This document shows, piece by piece, positions 14,171 to 57,029 of a stretch of 64,000 nucleotides of DNA. Origin of the DNA: Thermococcus gammatolerans EJ3. GTDB lineage: Archaea; Methanobacteriota_B; Thermococci; Thermococcales; Thermococcaceae. Where the stretch lies: positions 62,001 to 126,000 of the forward strand of contig NC_012804.1 of the NCBI RefSeq assembly GCF_000022365.1, written 5' to 3'. The notes below the pieces were generated by a model, which was not told the DNA's origin, ran no database searches, and saw only the letters and a program-made list of their open reading frames with translations. The translations under genes were made by a program, and so were the position numbers. Every line of letters begins with the position of its first letter. The first letter of the stretch is position 1.

Positions 14171-14224
14171 ATGACAGAAAGAAAGAAGCTGAAGATATAC
14201 ATCCCCGGAATCAAATTTCCCTCG
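14171..14224 (+). pseudogene. Duplicated 5' fragment of the radical SAM gene
   Basis: An ATG with ribosome site GAGGTGA begins MTERKKLKIYIPGIKFPS. This repeats the first residues of the radical SAM gene starting at 14393; 35 bases are identical (14189-14223 and 14414-14448). After that the frame runs into GC-rich hairpin sequence and does not encode a radical SAM domain. The original start was probably separated from the gene by an insertion, or a paralogue was deleted here. Confidence 0.65.
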
Positions 14225-14392: not shown

Positions 14393-15232
14393 ATGGAAGC
14401 AGAAAAAAAGAAACTGAAGATATACATCCCCGGAATCAAATTTCCCTCTGTCTCGCTCACGGGGAGCTACTGCGCCCTCAACTGCGCCCACTGCGGGAGA
14501 CACTACCTCGAGGGTATGAAGAAGCCCAAAAAGGGGGAGCTCGTTGACTTCTGCCTCAACCTTGAGCGCTCCGGCGGTCTGGGCTGTCTGCTCAGCGGTG
14601 GTATGGACTCCCGCCTGAAGGTGCCGATTGACAAGTATGCGGACGAGTTAAGGAAGATAAAGAGGAGAACGAACCTGAAGATAAACGCCCACGTCGGCTT
14701 CATAGATGAGAGCGATTTGGAATGGCTGAAATACGTTGATGTCGTCTCCCTTGACTTTGTCGGCGATGACGACGTGATAAGGCGAGTTTACAGGATAGAC
14801 AAGACCGTAGAAGATTACCTTCGCATAGTTGAACTTCTGACCGAGAACGAAATTCGCGTGGCGCCCCACATAACGATAGGCCTCGATTTCGGGAGAATCC
14901 ACTGGGAGTACCGGGCGATTGACCTGCTCATGGAGTATCCAATAGACGTCCTCGTGCTGGACGTTCTCATCCCGACGAAGGGGACGGAGATGGAGAACGT
15001 CCCGAAACCGGGCGTTGAGGAGAGCCTGAAGGTCGTAAAATACGCGCGCGAGCGCTTCAACGGAGAGCTGAGCATAGGCTGCATGCGCCCGACTGGAAGG
15101 TGGCGTCTTGAGTTCGACAGGGGGGCGGTTTTGGCGGGCGTTGACAGGCTGACGAACCCGCCGAGGAAAGTCATCGAGTGGGCAAAAACGGTGAGGGACG
15201 TTGAGATAATCTACGAGTGCTGCGTTATGTGA
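14393..15232 (+). CDS. Radical SAM protein, LipS1-like (possible lipoyl synthase component)
   Basis: 279 residues with the radical SAM cluster motif CALNCAHC (CxxxCxxC) near residue 25. A TIM-barrel pattern follows (LLSGGMDSRLKVP, LKINAHVGFID, VVSLDFVGDDDVIRRVY, VAPHITIGLDFG). The overall look fits the biotin synthase-related archaeal family that includes LipS1, half of the two-protein archaeal lipoyl synthase; this is recognition from memory. No LipS2 partner is nearby, but a lipoate-ligase-like gene lies at 30210. ATG 14393 follows AAGGTGAT. Its first 35 conserved bases are duplicated 225 bases upstream. Confidence 0.65.
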   Translation: MEAEKKKLKIYIPGIKFPSVSLTGSYCALNCAHCGRHYLEGMKKPKKGELVDFCLNLERSGGLGCLLSGGMDSRLKVPIDKYADELRKIKRRTNLKINAHVGFIDESDLEWLKYVDVVSLDFVGDDDVIRRVYRIDKTVEDYLRIVELLTENEIRVAPHITIGLDFGRIHWEYRAIDLLMEYPIDVLVLDVLIPTKGTEMENVPKPGVEESLKVVKYARERFNGELSIGCMRPTGRWRLEFDRGAVLAGVDRLTNPPRKVIEWAKTVRDVEIIYECCVM

Positions 15233-27338: not shown

Positions 27339-27548
27339 AGAATCTTCAAGAGCCCGCCACACCTCAACGAGAGTTACCCGCTGAGGATTAAGATCAGGCC
27401 AATAAAGCTCGGCGAGCTCGACTTCAAGCCGCTGGTTCCAAAGCTGAAGTTCATCACCAACAAGAAGCGCTGGAGCGGCCACCTGATGGGCAAGGCGATG
27501 AGAGAAATCCCGGAGGAGGACTACCGGCTCATCGAAGGCCTGCTTTGA
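27339..27548 (+). pseudogene. EVE-domain (UPF0310) gene remnant
   Basis: 69 codons read [20 protein letters not shown], then [19 protein letters not shown] to the stop. This matches the C-terminal half of archaeal EVE-domain proteins such as the Pyrococcus UPF0310 protein, which bind modified bases in nucleic acids. The N-terminal half is missing, and the preceding 140 bases (27197-27338) show no EVE homology. The gene was truncated, probably when the repeat-rich region downstream was rearranged. Confidence 0.75.
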
Positions 27549-27690
27549 CTTTTCATTTTGACTAACAACCTCGAATTTTTTTGATGGTTGTTATTCATTC
27601 TGTCAAACTTAAAAAGAAGTCACAAAATATTTTGATCAAATTGATCAAACCCCCGCACAAGCGGAGTTATTAGGATGTGAGAACGTTAGC
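27549..27690. other. AT-rich intergenic stretch
   Basis: Contains ATTTTGATCAAATTGATCAAA and a T-rich run. No gene, promoter or RNA is recognised. Confidence 0.4.
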
Positions 27691-28307
27691 CCCCAGTAAG
27701 ATTGGCTTGCACAGAGCTTAACCAAAGAAGACGCCCTCTTTTCGTCAACACTAAAACTTTGGGAGAAGTCCTATCAAAGGTCGTGATTTTCCTCATATCT
27801 CCCCTATTATCGTGGATTTTTATACTCCTGGGGTTTTAGAGGAATGCAGTTCTAACTTGGCTCTCGAAGAGGGTTTGCTCTTTTTAGCGCTCCATAGGAG
27901 CGCGAGTTGGAGTAAACCCACTTGAAAGTTAGCCATTAAGAGCGCATTCAACCGAAAAACAGTCCCTTGAACCCGAAAATCATTACTGCAAAAGAGCACC
28001 TTGGATAAGAATCACGAACCTTGATCAAACTTCGCGCTCAGCCTTTAAGAAAGGCTGGCGAAAAGATTGCCCTTCTCATCAAACTGGCAGAAAAATCAGT
28101 CGTGCACTAGTCAAGTGCAACTTTGACTGGGGTTTAACACTAAATGAAGCCTTCCACGTAGTTTCAACTTTATTGTTGGCGTCCTTCGGACGCCGTTTGT
28201 AGAGTGAAACACTCACAGAAGAGCAAATTTGAGCTTAAACCCCTCTAAAATCAAACCTTTAGAAAAAGCACCTAATCTTCCGCCAGCGCTTGCTTTACAA
28301 GGGCTGT
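27690..28307 (+). repeat. Hairpin-rich non-coding repeat, copy A
   Basis: About 620 bases without a coding frame, ending against tRNA-His. It contains in order: a block GCTTGCACAGAGCTTAACC (about 27715); an outer GGGTTT/AAACCC stem around the perfect hairpin GCGCTCCATAGGAGCGC (27871-27919); CAGCCTTTAAGAAAGGCTG (28039-28057); an outer GTTTCAACT/AGTGAAAC stem enclosing GGCGTCC/GGACGCC (28161-28210); and CCGCCAGCGCTT...AAGGGCTGT (about 28280-28307). The last three and the first hairpin recur with different bases but the same pairing at 55.24-55.68 kb on the other strand, and partly at 31.05-31.60 kb. Confidence 0.75.
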
Positions 28308-28309
28308 TA

Positions 28310-28386
28310 TGGGGCCGGGGCCGGGATTTGAACCCGGGCTAGGGGATCCACAGTCCCCTGTGCTGACCAGGCTACACCACCCCGGC
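28310..28386 (-). tRNA. tRNA-His (GTG)
   Basis: Acceptor arms GCCGGGG/CCCCGGC, anticodon loop CTGTGGA (anticodon GTG), T-arm GGTTCAAATCC and encoded CCA. Base 28387 would encode the G(-1) typical of tRNA-His. A TATA element CTTTATAAATC lies upstream on the minus strand (about 28409-28420). Confidence 0.95.
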
Positions 28387-30959: not shown

Positions 30960-31049
30960 CGCCACCACCAGGGTTAAAAGGCTTGGCGGGTTTTTAAGTC
31001 CAGCGATGATGAGGCTAAGCCCTCCTGAGGGGTGATGAGAGCGGTCACC

Positions 31050-31600
31050 TCTGAGCAACCTTTGCTTGCACAAAGCTTGACCAAAATGGTTTAACTATCT
31101 AAACAGGACAAAAGGAAAGTTGCATGCGTGATTAAACAGTCAATGGATTTGGGGTTTACACTTGCAATATCTCCTGGAGAAGGTGTTTAACTTAAAAGGG
31201 CGCCCGAAGGGCGCTAACGGGAGAAAACACGCTTAAAACTGGCAAGTTTGGAAGTAAACCCCCATGAAGACAAGCCATTCAAGAGGCATGCCGACTTTGA
31301 TGAAACTTTGCCCAGCAAAGTTTCTTAACGTGGGGCGAAGCCCCACTCCAGGGGTTTGAGAGTACAGGAAGGATTTAGAACTTGATAGGAATCAAAGCGT
31401 GCGCTCCAAATTCAGCAGCGAATTAGGGATTGACGTAGAAACTGACCTATTGAGCTAGTTTCACTTATGTTCTGGCGTCTGGAAGACGCCTTGTCAGAAG
31501 TGAAACACTGTGAAAGTGCCGGTTGAAAATAATCCAAAAAAGAAAGGGAAGTCTAGTTGCACGCCCTCTTTCCGCCAGCGCTTTCGTCAGAAAGGGCTGT
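31050..31600 (+). repeat. Hairpin-rich non-coding repeat, copy B
   Basis: About 550 bases without a gene. GCTTGCACAAAGCTTGACC (about 31064) matches copy A. A GTGTTT/AAACAC outer stem surrounds GCGCCCGAAGGGCGC (31183-31230). GAAACTTTG/CAAAGTTTC (31302-31323) recurs at 55975 and 56321. GTGGGGCGAAGCCCCAC (31330-31346) is the reverse complement of a hairpin at 14278. The GTTTCACTT/AAGTGAAAC stem encloses GGCGTC/GACGCC (31458-31506). CCGCCAGCGCTTTCGTCAG ends near 31590. The base pairing is kept while bases differ from copy A. Confidence 0.75.
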
Positions 31601-40262: not shown

Positions 40263-42212
40263 TCACTCCTTAACTATCGCGTCTCCCCTGTACGGGACGA
40301 CCTCCAAGGTTCCCCGGTATTCCGTCACGTATCCGCCTATCTTCACGATATCACCCTCGTTGAACGTCCTGTCGCCGAGAACGCTCTTTGGAATGAAGAT
40401 CACGAGCTCGCCACTTCCGTCGTCTATCGTGAGCTTTACGAATGAACTGCCCGTGTAGATGCTCTTTACGGTTCCCTGGACGACTACGGTCTTTCCGAGC
40501 ATGTCAGAGGAGACTTCACCGGTCTCGAGGAGCGGCGAGGCAACGGCCTTGACGACCTCAATCGAGACCACTCTGTCTTTGTCGGCGTCATAGGTTATCT
40601 CGAGCTCGCTTCCGGTCCCGGTCTTGAGCGGGTTGGGGATCAGATCCCGCGAGACCGTGAGGTTAACCCTTCCCGTATCGTCAGAGACCTCGATGAGGTA
40701 GTTCGGCTTGGAGTAGTAAACGGCCTCCCACTTCACCTCCAGCTTAACGGTGCCGCTCGCCGAGGGCAGTTGGGAGAGGGTGATCGTTCCGTTCCCGCCC
40801 TGGCCCGGACTCGGGGTGGTAGTCGTTTCAGTCGTTCCACCTATTGGCTTTCTGTAGGCGATTATGGCCTCGGGGGTGTACGGTATGACCTCGAGCGTTC
40901 CCCTGTACTCGTCGAGGTAACCGGCGACTTTAACGCCGAGTCCGGCCTTGAGCTGGCCCTTCACGTTCTCATCGAGCTCCCTGACCACCGAACCGGGTAT
41001 GAAGATGGTTATCTCGCCGGTTCCATCGTTTACGACGAGCTTGAGGTTCGAGCCAACGTTGGCCGTGCTCACGATGTTGCCCTCGATAACAACTATCCTC
41101 CCGAGCATCTCGGAGGAGAGATCCCCGATTCTGCTCAGTTCGGGTTTGACCGGGCTGATAACCTCGAACTTCGAGACCTTGAGCGTGCCGTTGTCACCAA
41201 CGAGGCCAATGGCCTTGATCCTCGATCCAGAGCCGGCCTGGAACGGGTTTATCGCGGCCAGTACGTCCCTTGAGGTGTACAGGACGGCAGAAACATCTCC
41301 GTCGCTGACGGTGACGAGGTACTGCCCGGACTTGTAGGTTATCTTCTCGAGGGTGGCCTCCACCGAAACGGTCTCTCCAACGTGATCCCTCAGCTCATCA
41401 AGCGAGACCTGTGGAACCTGCTGGGCTCCAACGACGGTAAAGTCCTTGAGATCCCTTACGACGATCTCAGGCGAGCTACCCTTGTAGAGGTAAACCACGC
41501 CAGCGACCTTGACCTGATCACCCAGGGCAACCTTAGGAGCCTTTCCAATGACCAGGAGAACCTTGGGTATGAGAACAGTCACCCTACCGGAGCCGGTGTC
41601 CACCTCCATCAGGATTCCGCTGCTGACGTTGTTGAGGGATGTAACGAGGCCCTCCGTGTAGACGTACTCGTTGGCCATCTTTTCCGTGAGGGTCGTCACC
41701 TTGGGCGGATTGGGGGAGTAGGCCTTGCTTATGAACTTAAGCCCGTCGAGGTACTGGAGCATTCCGTAGGTGTAGGTTTCCCTCACGCGGAGCTGTATTT
41801 CCGCCTCTATCCTGTCGCCCGGGAAGGGAACCTTTCCCTCTTTGATGAGCTTTTCCGCAACCGGAGAATAAACCCTGATGTCGATCGAGCCGGTGCCATC
41901 GTTAACGGAGAACGTAACGCTCAGTTTTCCGCCACTTTCAGAAACGTAGGGGACGCTCACGACGTTTCCTTCCACCCTGACAACGGCGTAGTTCATCAGA
42001 TAGTTGCCGTAGACATCACTTATCTTCGCCATTGGAGCCTTCGCAGATTGAGCCGCTATGAGGATCAGCGCGACACCGAGAACTGCTATAACGAGGGAAA
42101 CGTACTTCAGCTTCGAGACGTCGATCTTCTTCTGCTCCTTAAGTCCGTGATAGTAAAGCTTCTTCTCCTCCTTTCTGGAGTCAGGATTACCATTTGAGCC
42201 GTTTGAGGTCAC
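40263..42212 (-). CDS. Membrane-anchored multi-OB-fold protein
   Basis: 649 residues: a cytoplasmic tail rich in Lys and Gln, one membrane helix (VSLVIAVLGVALILIAA, near residue 40), then about five to six extracytoplasmic OB-fold modules. The modules repeat VVIEGNIVS, LVVNDGTGEITIFIPGSVV and GYLDEYRGTLEVIPYTPEAI patterns. A Thr/Gly linker (near residue 460) separates the last two. The final modules are nearly interchangeable with those of the lipoprotein encoded upstream. GTG start with GGGGGTG. OB folds of this kind bind nucleic acid or sugars; which is unknown. Confidence 0.75.
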   Translation of the reverse strand: MTSNGSNGNPDSRKEEKKLYYHGLKEQKKIDVSKLKYVSLVIAVLGVALILIAAQSAKAPMAKISDVYGNYLMNYAVVRVEGNVVSVPYVSESGGKLSVTFSVNDGTGSIDIRVYSPVAEKLIKEGKVPFPGDRIEAEIQLRVRETYTYGMLQYLDGLKFISKAYSPNPPKVTTLTEKMANEYVYTEGLVTSLNNVSSGILMEVDTGSGRVTVLIPKVLLVIGKAPKVALGDQVKVAGVVYLYKGSSPEIVVRDLKDFTVVGAQQVPQVSLDELRDHVGETVSVEATLEKITYKSGQYLVTVSDGDVSAVLYTSRDVLAAINPFQAGSGSRIKAIGLVGDNGTLKVSKFEVISPVKPELSRIGDLSSEMLGRIVVIEGNIVSTANVGSNLKLVVNDGTGEITIFIPGSVVRELDENVKGQLKAGLGVKVAGYLDEYRGTLEVIPYTPEAIIAYRKPIGGTTETTTTPSPGQGGNGTITLSQLPSASGTVKLEVKWEAVYYSKPNYLIEVSDDTGRVNLTVSRDLIPNPLKTGTGSELEITYDADKDRVVSIEVVKAVASPLLETGEVSSDMLGKTVVVQGTVKSIYTGSSFVKLTIDDGSGELVIFIPKSVLGDRTFNEGDIVKIGGYVTEYRGTLEVVPYRGDAIVKE

Positions 42213-42318
42213 GCTAACACCCCCTCAACTTCTGGATTTCGGGACGTAGCAAAGGAGTAGAAGGGCCGGGCTTTTAACAGTTTCGTGTATAACCATGACC
42301 AGCGAAAAAATGAAAGGA

Positions 42319-43731
42319 TTAGGTCAGTATCTCGATGCCCTCCACCGAGTAGGGTATGATCTCTATCGTGCCCTTGTACTCCGTAACGTAGCCGCCAATC
42401 TCAACGGAAGCCCCGTCCTGGAGCCTTGACTTAACGTCCTCCGGGAGCTTGGAGGCAACTGAGGATGGCACGAAGACCGTTATGTTGCCGCTACCGTCAA
42501 CGACGAGGAACTTGAGGTTCGCACCGATGGTCTTGAAGTCCGAAACCGTTCCCTGAACGACCACTGTCTTCCCGAGGAGCTCTGCGGTAACGTTGGCCGT
42601 GCTGAGGAGCGGCGACGGCTGCGGACTGACGGCGGAGAGGTTGAGAACCTTCATCGATGAGGCATCGACGACCAGGTGGAGCACGCTGCCCGTCCCCACC
42701 TTTATGGGGTTCGGGAGGATCTCCCTCTCCGCCGTGAGGTTAACCCTTCCCGTATCGTCAGAGACCTCGATGAGGTAGTTCGGCTTGGAGTAGTAGAGCT
42801 TGACCCAGGTGGCGTTAAGCTGAACGGTACCGCTGGCAGAGGAGAGCTCCGAAACGGTAACCCACTGAACCTCGGTCTGGGTCTGAGTGCTCGTGGTCGT
42901 TGTCGTCGTTGTGGTTGTCGTGGTGGTAGTCTCTATCTGGAGGGGCTCCCCGTAGGCGATTATGGCCTCAGGGATGTACGGTATGACCTCAAGCGTTCCC
43001 CTGTACTCGTCAACGTAGCCACCGATCTTAACCCCGAGACCTCCCTTCAGGCCGGAGAGGGTCTCGTTTGAGAGCTCCTTAACTACCGATCCCGGAATGA
43101 AGACGACTATCTCGCCGGTTCCATCGGTCACGGTTAGCTTCAGGTTGGAGCCTATCTTCTTCGTGCTAACCACGTTGCCCTCGATGACTACAATCTTCCC
43201 GAGCATCCCAGAGGAGATGTCTTTGATCTCACTGGTGGTTGGGGCCTTCTTCTCCACAACTTCGATTTCACCGGCCGAGAGCTGCTCCTGGGATTCAACC
43301 TCTCCGGTCACCAGGATCTTGGAGCCAACGCCAACCTCAAGCGGGTTGAGAACCGACAGGAGCCCACGCTTCGCCGTGACGTTTATCTTCGCACCGTTTT
43401 CGCCCATTGATATAACGTAGACGTGGTTCGCTGAGTCGTAGGAGATGCCGAGGAGAAGGCCCTCAACGCTGACGTTCTTTCCGACGTAGTTCCCGATTTC
43501 ACCTATCGACACCTTGGGAATGGAAGGCGTTGATGTAGTGGTGGTCTGTGGAGATGTCGTTGTCGTCGTGGTGGTTGTGGTCGTCTGAGCAGCGGAAGTC
43601 GTTGTCTGGGTTTGAGAGCTGGTCGTCGATGAGGTGGTTGGAGTGCTCTCCTTGGAGCCGCCCCCGATACAGCCGGCCGAGATCACGACCAGACCTATCA
43701 GGAGCAACGCTAGGGCAAACTTCACCCTCAT
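42319..43731 (-). CDS. Multi-OB-fold lipoprotein with Thr-rich linkers
   Basis: 470 residues. The signal peptide ends in the lipobox ISAGC (Cys near residue 21). A Thr/Ser-rich stalk follows, then OB-fold modules, a second poly-Thr linker near residue 275, and two more modules (VVIEGNVVS; GYVDEYRGTLEVIPYIPEAI; VVQGTVSDF; GYVTEYKGTIEIIPY). The linkers are likely O-glycosylated. It is the first gene of the cluster, with GAGGTGAA before ATG, and is clearly a paralogue of the protein at 40263. Confidence 0.8.
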   Translation of the reverse strand: MRVKFALALLLIGLVVISAGCIGGGSKESTPTTSSTTSSQTQTTTSAAQTTTTTTTTTTSPQTTTTSTPSIPKVSIGEIGNYVGKNVSVEGLLLGISYDSANHVYVISMGENGAKINVTAKRGLLSVLNPLEVGVGSKILVTGEVESQEQLSAGEIEVVEKKAPTTSEIKDISSGMLGKIVVIEGNVVSTKKIGSNLKLTVTDGTGEIVVFIPGSVVKELSNETLSGLKGGLGVKIGGYVDEYRGTLEVIPYIPEAIIAYGEPLQIETTTTTTTTTTTTTSTQTQTEVQWVTVSELSSASGTVQLNATWVKLYYSKPNYLIEVSDDTGRVNLTAEREILPNPIKVGTGSVLHLVVDASSMKVLNLSAVSPQPSPLLSTANVTAELLGKTVVVQGTVSDFKTIGANLKFLVVDGSGNITVFVPSSVASKLPEDVKSRLQDGASVEIGGYVTEYKGTIEIIPYSVEGIEILT

Positions 43732-55243: not shown

Positions 55244-55678
55244 ACAGCCCTTTCTGACGAAAGCGCTGGCGGAAGAGTAGGTGCTTTTCTACGGAGTGGC
55301 AAGTTCTAAGAGAGGTTCTAACTCAACTTGCCCTTTGATTAGTGTTTCACTCTAAGAAGGCGTCCTTCGGACGCCGATGATAAGTTGAAACTATCTCAAG
55401 GGTTTTATTATAGGGTGAACCCATTTATAGACTCGCTCTTTTGTTAGTGCACGATTGACTTCTTGCTCTTCGGCGAGAAGGGCGCTCATTTCGCCAGCCT
55501 TTCCCAAAGGCTGTTACAAAGTTTCATCAAAGTTTGTAGCTCCTTTTGGAAGGCCATATTTCAAGAGATTTTCCATTTAATTGGCCGTATTGAGTAAGAG
55601 AACTTTTTAAATTGCCCCTTTTGGAAGGGTTTGACATTTAAATCGACGCCCGAAGGGCGTCAAGAAGAGAGCAAACCC
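55244..55678 (-). repeat. Hairpin-rich non-coding repeat, copy C (inverted)
   Basis: On the minus strand the order matches copy A: GGGTTTGC...GACGCCCTTCGGGCGTC...CAAACCC (55678-55627), CAGCCTTTGGGAAAGGCTG (55513-55495), the GTTTCAACTT/AGAGTGAAAC stem around GGCGTCC (55391-55344), then GAAAAGCACCTACTCTTCCG and the CCGCCAGCGCTT end (about 55275-55246). Loops differ from copy A while stems pair. It lies directly after tRNA-Trp. No protein is encoded. Confidence 0.75.
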
Positions 55679-56000
55679 CTTTGTAGGGTGCTGTTTTTGT
55701 GTTCTCCATTTGGAAAAAGCAATTTCGTGAGTAAAATCGATTTTATGGGGGTCTTTGGCGAGAAGCTACTAACTTTTGGTGAAGCTTTTGGAAAAAAGCT
55801 CCAGCGCTGGCGGAAAGTGTTGTACGTTGTTTTTAAGTTGATTGCCGGCAGAGGTTTTGCTTCATCGAAAGCGCCCGATGGACACCACCAAGAGAAAACA
55901 CGCCTAAACAGGCGAGTTTAGAAGTAAACCACCTAAAAATCAACCCTTTTTTGAAAATGCATTCTCATTTTGATGAAACTTTGCGAAAGCAAAGTTTCTA
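55679..56000 (+). repeat. Partial repeat copy D
   Basis: The AGAAAACACGCCTAAACAGG block and the following TTTAGAAGTAAACC (55891-55929) match copy B at 31222-31259. GAAACTTTGCGAAAGCAAAGTTTC (55975-55998) is a perfect hairpin. CGCTGGCGGAAAG (about 55803) matches the end block in inverted orientation. It ends against tRNA-Gln. A 96-residue frame across 55631-55921 is composed of repeat sequence and is not taken as a gene. Confidence 0.6.
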
Positions 56001-56076
56001 TGGTAGCCCCGCCGGGATTCGAACCCGGGTCGCGGGATCCAAAGTCCCGCATGCTTGGCCGCTACACCACGGGGCT
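56001..56076 (-). tRNA. tRNA-Gln (TTG)
   Basis: Acceptor arms AGCCCCG/CGGGGCT, anticodon loop CTTTGGA (anticodon TTG), T-arm GGTTCGAATCC, encoded CCA. A TATA element (AACTTTATAAGCC on the minus strand, about 56102-56113) lies upstream. Confidence 0.95.
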
Positions 56077-56113: not shown

Positions 56114-56342
56114 TAGTGAAAAGTCACCCCATAGGGATTTATCAAAATTCGTAGCCCTCTCCTAGTTTGACCAAGTTTGTGATTCTTTTGTGAAGTGCTC
56201 TTTTGATAGGTTTACCTTTTTAAGTGTGGAGTTTTAGGGAAGAATTCCTTTGAAAATGCCTGTTGGGACTGCAAGCCTTTTTCTCAGTTGGCTTTCTGGG
56301 AGGAATCACGAAACTTTGATGAAACTTTGCCCAGCAGAGTTT
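56114..56342. repeat. Repeat fragment E beside tRNA-Gln
   Basis: Non-coding. GAAACTTTGCCCAGCAGAGTTTC (56321-56343) is a third copy of the hairpin at 31302 and 55975 and reaches into the stop region of the zinc-ribbon gene. TTTGACCAAG near 56165 resembles the block at 31078. Nothing else is recognised. Confidence 0.5.
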
Positions 56343-57029
56343 CTAGAACGCAAACTCCTCGACGCTGAACTGCTCGATGACCCTCTCGAAGTCAGTCTCG
56401 GGGGTGTAAACGAAACCACAGCGGGTACACTTCAAAACGCCGTTCTCCTCGGTGAGTGGAGAGAAGCAGACCGGACAACGATACTCCTCTCGCTTTAGAG
56501 AGTCGTAAACTTCATCCCTCATCACGAGCAGGTTGAGCTCGCTCTCCCAGTCCTCGTGGAGCATTCCCCAATAAGGGGTCTCAACGGGATAGAAATCCTC
56601 GAGGATTAGGGCCTTAATCCCTATCCCCCTGATTCCCGGCGGAAGCTTACCGGCGGGTTCTATCCCAACCACGTACTGGTCGTAAAACTCTATGTGCTCC
56701 GTCCTGACGGTTAAACCGCGGGAGAGCCTCGAACGGAGCGGAATAAGCTGGAGAAACAGACTTTCCCTCTCGACGTCCCAGCTCGCGCTTATTGAAACGC
56801 CCTTCTTCGTGAAGAACTGAGTGATGTAACGGTCGTCTCTCTCCTCCCCTACCAAGGAGAACCCAAGCTTTCTCATCGCCCTTCCGAGGAAGTTCGGCCT
56901 GGGGAGCTTCTGATAATTAATCAAGTACTCCCCGATCCACCCCGCCAGGGGCATGGAGTAGCCTATGAAGGCCTGCCTCTCGACGCGCAGGTAGGCAACG
57001 CTGGGGAGGAGCTTGAACTGGTCGAGCAT
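56343..57029 (-). CDS. Conserved protein with C-terminal zinc ribbon, unknown function
   Basis: 228 residues. The C-terminal CPVCFSPLTEENGVLKCTRC is a zinc-ribbon. The N-terminal 180 residues (PLRSRLSRGLTVRTEHIEFY; PPGIRGIGIKALILED) show no family I know. No ribosome binding site is seen. A TATA (GCTATTTATAGG, about 57048-57059) about 25 bases upstream suggests a leaderless transcript. Its 3' end borders the repeat region. Confidence 0.6.
   Translation of the reverse strand: MLDQFKLLPSVAYLRVERQAFIGYSMPLAGWIGEYLINYQKLPRPNFLGRAMRKLGFSLVGEERDDRYITQFFTKKGVSISASWDVERESLFLQLIPLRSRLSRGLTVRTEHIEFYDQYVVGIEPAGKLPPGIRGIGIKALILEDFYPVETPYWGMLHEDWESELNLLVMRDEVYDSLKREEYRCPVCFSPLTEENGVLKCTRCGFVYTPETDFERVIEQFSVEEFAF

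Follow-up and report, generated by a model that had tools for sequence, protein, structure and literature searches.

Several kinds of short, dispersed sequence provide a background for the element described here. The RAYT-associated REP and BIME sequences of bacteria possess a hairpin of ~35 nt with one conserved mismatch in the stem and a conserved flanking foot, and are dispersed, intergenic and often arrayed; IS200/605 elements insert without target duplication. MITEs are short, non-coding and mobile, with target duplication, Rickettsia palindromic elements are small palindromic mobile sequences in genes and RNA genes, and introners are mobile inserts of eukaryotes that become spliced introns, of the spliceosomal kind and in protein genes, at many sites of a genome. 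The archaeal splicing signal is the bulge-helix-bulge (BHB), with cleavage usually inside the bulges, and how the introns of archaeal tRNA and rRNA genes arose is a question of long standing. Group I introns occur in rRNA genes of some of the archaeal phyla dealt with here (PMC6125680).

The present element fits REP sequences, MITEs, introners and BHB introns each in part and none of them fully. Copies matching our covariance model R1 (below) carry a C-C mismatch and an RCGGAAA tail, as the REP/RAYT hairpins would lead one to expect; unlike REP and BIME sequences they are archaeal, are associated with duplications of ~14-38 bp and are found at tRNA ends and in introns, and the Y1 domain (PF01797) of TnpA_REP is absent from 30 of 40 genomes. 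The resemblance to MITEs lies in a short, non-coding, mobile sequence with target duplication and, at pyrB-pyrI, empty sites; the differences are a duplication of variable length, one constant end and a parent transposon that was not found (see below). Introners would share the conversion of a mobile insert into an intron, but the introns predicted here are of the BHB type and in archaeal RNA genes. With the known BHB introns of tRNA genes the exact hBHBh' motif is shared by 17 of 23 T-loop inserts; the open literature searched describes for those introns neither a shared conserved terminal hairpin nor duplication-flanked intergenic copies, both of which are present here. Rickettsia palindromic elements are set apart, by their description, in host domain, sequence and size. 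Group I introns (Nawrocki et al. 2018) are far larger, and no Rfam group I match was obtained at the tested loci.

Searches of Rfam 15 at gathering score, covering the window and 50 loci, and an E-value search of 27.6-31.7 kb returned only the host tRNA, rRNA and C/D RNA genes. The open-access literature on tRNA introns of these phyla, Thermococcales repeats, palindromic elements and introners, subscription journals and preprints lying outside its scope, contained no description of the element. An earlier note on this DNA had known of no named family that fits, and these searches agree; as far as we could find, the hairpin inserts are previously undescribed.

Hairpin arrays in the window

The window, a stretch of 64,000 nucleotides, comprises bases 62001-126000 of a complete 2.05 Mb Thermococcus genome. 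The earlier note had reported a dispersed family of nested-hairpin elements in three copies with fragments, and the sequence does contain them: A at 27.69-28.31 kb, B at 31.06-31.60 kb, C, in inverted orientation, at 55.24-55.51 kb, and the D fragments at 55.5-56.0 and 56.13-56.34 kb, composed as follows.

27690-28307, minus strand: copy A, an array of hairpin units with its terminus 2 nt past the CCA of tRNA-His (tRNA gap 2, L171)
28279-28307, minus strand: copy A type-1 end hairpin, ACAGCCCTTG..CAAGCGCTGGCGGA (R1 match G000:C1:90276-90307, E 1.8e-6)
28161-28210, unstranded: copy A nested body, GTTTCA..GGCGTCCTTCGGACGCC..TGAAAC (sequence and body-stem analysis)
28039-28061, plus strand: copy A inner hairpin, CAGCCTTTAAGAAAGGCTG and GCGA, a variant module
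28310-28386, minus strand: tRNA-His, host gene whose 3' end adjoins copy A
31057-31600, minus strand: copy B, an array extending from one to the other of two convergent C/D RNA genes
31571-31600, minus strand: copy B type-1 end hairpin, ACAGCCCTTTCTGACGAAAGCGCTGGCGGA (R1 match, E 7.4e-11)
31458-31506, unstranded: copy B nested body, GTTTCACTT..GGCGTC..GACGCC..AAGTGAAAC (body-stem analysis, L167)
31057-31085, plus strand: copy B type-2 end hairpin, AACCTTTGCTTGCACAAAGCTTGACCAAA, adjoining a C/D RNA
31296-31323, minus strand: copy B inner type-2 hairpin, AAACTTTGCTGGGCAAAGTTTCATCAAA
31602-31656, minus strand: C/D box RNA sR36, host gene to the right of copy B (Rfam RF01124, 79.8 bits)
31002-31056, plus strand: second C/D box RNA, host gene to the left of copy B, converging with sR36 (RF00095, 44.4 bits, just below the cut-off of 45)
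55244-55513, plus strand: copy C, an array beginning 2 nt past the CCA of tRNA-Trp (tRNA gap 2, L168)
55244-55273, plus strand: copy C type-1 end hairpin (R1 match, E 5.3e-10)
55344-55391, unstranded: copy C nested body, GTTTCA..GGCGTCCTTCGGACGCC..TGAAAC
55491-55513, minus strand: copy C inner hairpin, CAGCCTTTGGGAAAGGCTGGCGA
55514-56000, unstranded: fragments D, additional units
55803-55813: unit junction in fragments D, AGCGCTGGCGG
55775-55800 and 55969-55997: type-2 hairpins of fragments D, the second adjoining the tRNA-Gln 3' end
56001-56076, minus strand: tRNA-Gln, host gene next to D
56130-56344, minus strand: additional fragment past tRNA-Gln, with a type-2 hairpin at 56315-56342

Each of the arrays A, B and C possesses a single strongly conserved end, ACAGCCCTTTC-loop-GAAAGCGCTGGCGGAA, which is oriented in the sense of the adjoining RNA gene and faces its 3' end, that of tRNA-His for A, of the C/D RNA sR36 for B and of tRNA-Trp for C. 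The terminus of D is the second hairpin type, AAACTTTGC..GCAAAGTTTC-ATCAAA, set against tRNA-Gln. The proposal that the elements lie beside tRNA genes is thus borne out for A, C and D, but B sits exactly between its two convergent C/D box RNA genes. Copy C does follow tRNA-Trp, from whose CCA it is separated by 2 nt, and D is adjacent to tRNA-Gln as proposed, it being D's own end that adjoins the 3' end of that gene. Copy A, described before as upstream of tRNA-His, is in transcription terms on its 3', downstream side. A block order common to the copies had also been suggested: the nested body is indeed found in A, B and C, but the pair CAGCCTTT/AAAGGCTG is confined to A and C, its place in B being taken by a AAACTTTGC..GCAAAGTTT hairpin. 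The end block CCGCCAGCGCTT..GGGCTGT proved to form a hairpin, mismatched at one position, and no other part of the element is as conserved or as diagnostic. In the related genome G049 the entire copy-B site consists of one 27-nt type-2 hairpin between the same two RNA genes (L428).

Three further features of the window may be recorded. Next to copy A, positions 27349-27549 hold just the C-terminal part of an apparently truncated gene, whose counterpart at this place in L067 (MTYYLCINN...) looks complete and presumably encodes an EVE-like product. A 49-nt direct repeat of 96% identity occurs at 14175-14223 and 14400-14448, 225 nt apart. Three direct-repeat pairs of 76-83% identity, spaced by ~2.1 kb, lie within 40602-43217 and are probably tandem paralogous genes.

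The core hairpin, its covariation and its distribution

The core of the element is a hairpin of 32-45 nt, (A)NNRC-C-CUUU..AAAG-C-GYNN-RCGGAAA, containing a C·C mismatch and a strongly covarying base of 4 bp. The type 1 tail reads RCGGAAA and that of the sister type 2 RYCAAA, a purine tail in both. When the exact end-hairpin pattern was scanned over one genome per species, the matches listed came from many Thermococcus contigs and also, as was not expected, from numerous DPANN archaea. In bacteria the pattern's matches scored no more than 29 bits; in viral contigs it had 14 matches, and those inspected lacked the hairpin.

The covariance-model search for further copies that had been recommended found them in both Thermococcales and DPANN, with covariation above that in shuffles. 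The model, R1, has 39 positions and nine pairs and was built on a seed of 32 copies, in which 99.6% of cells are paired and five pairs have changes on both sides. A further 77 matches, from DPANN loci, have 99.2% of cells paired; since these were fitted to R1 their alignment leans towards it, and the useful part of the comparison is its controls, in which a structure shifted by one column has no more than 69% of cells paired and shuffling yields 18.9 cells with both-side changes, as against 78 observed. The first four bases of the stem (N4) read CAGC, GAAC, AAAC, TAAC, CAAC, AAGC, GCAC, CGGC, GAGC, TGAC and more, the partner strand nearly always matching.

The nested body of Thermococcales copies is more variable than the end hairpin. 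An apical hairpin, GC-rich and enclosed by a second stem, is found in 41 such copies at a distance of ~77-117 nt from the conserved end. Compensating variants are seen in the apical stem (GGCGTCC/GGACGCC, GGCGCCC/GGGCGCC and AGCGCCC/GGGCGCT) and in the outer stem (GTTTCA/TGAAAC, GTTCCA/TGGAAC, GTTCGCA/TGCGAAC and GGAGTTC/GAACTCC), and an outer body stem of at least 6 bp can be formed by 83% of the 41 copies, compared to 51% when flanks are swapped between copies. The body stems therefore vary with pairing kept, above the swapped control, and their covariation is real, as had been surmised from the window alone.

R1 matches are present in 72 of 115 genomes of the window's phylum, including nearly all of its genus; among the listed genomes of genus g3 of that phylum there was none. 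The genome studied here has eight good matches, its census of copies being based on model and BLAST searches. In the phylum containing the Woesearchaeota 20 of 279 genomes have matches, several of them with 5-17 copies. Selected carriers, with genomes of 0.6-1.2 Mb, have 2-39 copies each, the highest count being 39 in a genome of 0.7 Mb. Presence in DPANN is patchy, with some copies flanked by target duplications and many within tRNA or rRNA genes; such a combination of patchy occurrence and many copies is as expected of a mobile element. The many genomes without any match also bound the false-positive rate.

The Thermococcales bodies are long and DPANN copies have none, so a single origin has this against it and common descent rests on ~40 nt. 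That length in common, and a first scan that itself fixed part of the sequence, would be compatible with unrelated chance hairpins in the two groups. We regard this as extremely improbable, given that per-genome E-values reach 1e-11 although the majority of genomes in these groups show no match at all, that the bacterial pattern matches score low, and that a type-2 hairpin (RYCAAA tail) is likewise common to Thermococcales and DPANN. None of the outcomes listed beforehand as telling against the family (no more copies, chance-level covariation, a known insertion element, an rRNA or tRNA fragment) was encountered.

Insertion sites, duplications and predicted introns

Three results go beyond the earlier note, namely an exact 2-nt spacing to tRNA 3' ends, a wide archaeal spread and the hairpin as 5' end of predicted DPANN tRNA and rRNA introns. 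A structure-based scan gave 99 Thermococcales copies, and in 69 of these a CCA stands at precisely the same distance, 2 nt ahead of ACAGCCC. The remaining offsets account for 0-10 copies, except for 40 at 3 nt further upstream, a count probably due to the many ends that read CCACCA or GCCACCA and so contain CCA twice. Independent tRNA detection succeeded for 70 of 90 copies, with a gap of 2 in nearly all. All tRNA-flanking Thermococcales copies are in the tRNA sense, and the others follow RNA genes of other kinds or occupy gaps between protein genes. That the tRNA-flanking copies sit exactly at +2 implies a choice of target. In many copies the bases directly upstream of the fixed end are C-rich, ACCNN at tRNA ends and CACC opposite ribosome-binding sites; as a target cue this is a lead only.

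Such exact spacing would also be expected of a functional RNA module, one that marks 3' trailers or intron ends for RNase Z, for the splicing endonuclease or for circularisation of the RNA and is copied for its usefulness. The pairs kept by covariation, among them those of a pyrB-pyrI insert after a shared insertion, and the two alternative partners retained by the intron N4 strand (below) point in the same direction. Nevertheless, most tRNA genes in the same genomes lack the hairpin (eight good matches in this genome), it is patchy between related genomes, and the operon copies are antisense to the genes and have target duplications, so that we consider a functional module of this kind rather improbable.

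Flanking target duplications, whose presence the earlier note had proposed to check, do surround the copies between protein genes, as direct repeats of ~14-38 bp. At L244 the repeat CTCATTCTCTCACCACC is identical at 17 of 17 positions, and other examples measure 16 bp (L198), 14-17 bp (pyrB-pyrI), 28 bp (L170) and 32 and 36 bp (L191). The pyrB-pyrI site is decisive in that, in several genomes including this one, two GGGGGTGCTCTGAATG sequences or close variants surround an insert of ~120 nt, and in many relatives the flanks overlap by 14-16 bp to give one GGGGGTGCTCTGAATG, the 16-bp target, with no insert. These empty sites with one target copy show that the element is mobile. Within the pyrB-pyrI insert (L370, L371, L373 and L375) an inner hairpin has diverged in sequence with its pairing preserved (GCATCCCC/GGGGATGC, GTATCCCA/TGGGATAC), a hint that it may act in the mRNA of the operon.

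Flanking repeats with a score of at least 13 were found for 10 of 120 DPANN copies, for comparison with 0.5% when partners were swapped. The loci concerned are L279, with a perfect repeat of 39-41 bp that is part of a tandem duplication, L363 (24 bp), L283, L285, L280, L284, L334, L348 and L302. At L363 and L279 the duplication repeats the last codons of a gene, which for this reason remains intact. In genome G116 intergenic copies with target duplications (L279, L283, L285) occur together with copies within tRNA genes (L281, L286); no recent intron birth was seen among them. The fixed end of the inserts is always N4 (N4/ACAGCCC) and the other end varies, the distance from tail to second repeat being 0-43 nt in DPANN and longer in Thermococcales. 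A duplication of the tRNA 3' end was sought at the far side of tRNA-flanking arrays, and none was found beyond neighbouring tRNA genes; mobility is accordingly shown for the operon and intergenic copies, and is extended to the tRNA copies by virtue of their shared end. Two individual loci deserve mention: at L302:384-509 the insert and a 38-nt flank are tandemly duplicated before an intact tRNA gene, perhaps as a young insertion, and at L066:2498-2524, in an Aenigmatarchaeota genome, a copy lies just upstream of an apparent thermosome gene, a possible promoter or 5' UTR insertion.

The combination of one fixed and one variable end with duplications that range over 14-38 bp resembles the outcome of target-primed reverse transcription, and the terminal stem-loop at the end of the element is typical of the templates of such reverse transcriptases. 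In a SINE-like element of this sort an RNA ending ...CCGCCAGCGC-hairpin-GGGCUGU would serve a reverse transcriptase as template for synthesis at a nick in the target. The enzyme in question was sought as RVT_1, which was found in 0 of 61 Thermococcus genomes and exceeded the cut-off in four of 26 carrier DPANN genomes; this weakens an RNA-mediated origin of that type, which we judge unlikely.

Among 126 DPANN copies, 23 start directly after the T-loop sequence GTTCRA, for which shifted controls give 0-1. These T-loop copies were scored for the hBHBh' motif, a 4-bp helix between two 3-nt bulges made up of T-loop exon bases, the N4 strand and the nucleotides immediately preceding the T-stem's second half, and the proportion with an exact motif (17 of the 23) compares with 3.5% expected. 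Given the usual cleavage inside bulges, the predicted intron would begin at the first N4 base or one base earlier; the same point of the element is the boundary of the target duplication in L279, L302 and L363. Further DPANN copies are located in anticodon loops and D-loops, and the Rfam tRNA model spans the insert at L006, L013, L032, L281 and L312. A splicing test with ARAGORN was positive for 24 of 119 copies compared to four of 97 controls, the count being a lower bound since two or three inserts are present in many of the tRNAs concerned. Copies also lie within the genes for 23S (L082) and 16S (L308) rRNA; an initial guess that placed the L082 copy in RNase P RNA was unsupported by Rfam. 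In the 0.7 Mb genome G300, L345, L353, L354, L357 and L359 are single tRNA genes each with two or three inserts in the D-, anticodon- and T-loops, an unusual load of predicted tRNA introns for a genome of that size.

In the T-loop introns the N4 strand can pair either with N4', forming the hairpin, or with N4'', forming the BHB, the two pairings being mutually exclusive. A second downstream complement of N4 is weakly enriched over all copies and clear in the T-loop introns only. That N4' is kept despite the BHB pairing suggests that the hairpin serves a purpose other than splicing, either as DNA or within the intron once excised. As hairpin base and BHB use the same N4 strand, the conservation of both calls for a further reason.

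A candidate mechanism and its significance

The earlier note had left a choice between a structured RNA, a non-autonomous mobile element and the remains of an integrated element. Covariation, target duplications and empty sites favour the second, in the form of a non-autonomous mobile element with a selected hairpin structure. Candidate mobilising enzymes were looked for in the carriers. Conserved mismatch, conserved flank and intergenic, arrayed, numerous copies would suit a REP-like element whose mismatched hairpin and foot are recognised by a Y1 (HUH) transposase of the IS200/IS605 type. However, PF01797 was detected in 10 of 40 genomes, its presence is uncorrelated with copy number and it is absent from those with most copies (from G116, with 39 copies, from G118, G122, G124 and G300, and from the present genome), and the duplications seen here run counter to IS200/605 behaviour; we therefore hold mobilisation by such a transposase to be very unlikely. 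Movement by Cas1, as in a casposon, was set aside, PF01867 being missing from most carriers (found in three of 26 genomes; absent from this genome and G116). An autonomous parent was sought between neighbouring same-strand DPANN copies, by inspection short of gene-by-gene annotation, and was not found, the copies lying mostly in tRNA and rRNA genes.

Since reverse transcriptase, Y1 transposase and Cas1 are missing from many carriers, we propose a non-autonomous element moved by another enzyme acting in trans. The copies are thus probably an archaeal mobile element, introner-like, whose essential part is the short hairpin, a reading that brings together the duplications and empty sites, the variable end, the predicted BHB introns and an enzyme supplied in trans. 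That enzyme would recognise the hairpin and join it at a staggered cut, with repair creating the duplication. Copies would survive where RNA processing removes them, as in 3' trailers and BHB introns, or where the duplication restores a gene end, so that processing by RNase Z or the splicing endonuclease, and likewise the target duplication, may render insertion harmless exactly at the places where copies are found. In Thermococcales the element, with nested body and in arrays, lands 2 nt behind tRNA 3' ends or between operon genes; in DPANN a bare hairpin of ~32-85 bp is also found within tRNA and rRNA genes, in the T-loop with its first base at the predicted 5' splice site. In this respect it may act like an intron-seeding element.

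A more far-reaching and doubtful possibility is that one hairpin family seeded the BHB introns of tRNA and rRNA genes in several archaeal phyla. Mobile unit and excised intron would on this view share their first base, and the transposing form might then be the spliced-out intron RNA, possibly circular, or a copy of it, moved by a so far undescribed archaeal enzyme, and the N4 base might be a bistable switch under selection between splicing and the mobile form.

The absence of the usual candidates from many carriers would imply an undescribed mobilising enzyme. The element may show how archaeal tRNA and rRNA introns arise: a mobile element whose end forms the 5' splice site of introns, found in DPANN and Thermococcales alike and still marked by target duplications and empty sites, would open the gain of introns in archaea to direct test, cultivable Thermococcus included.
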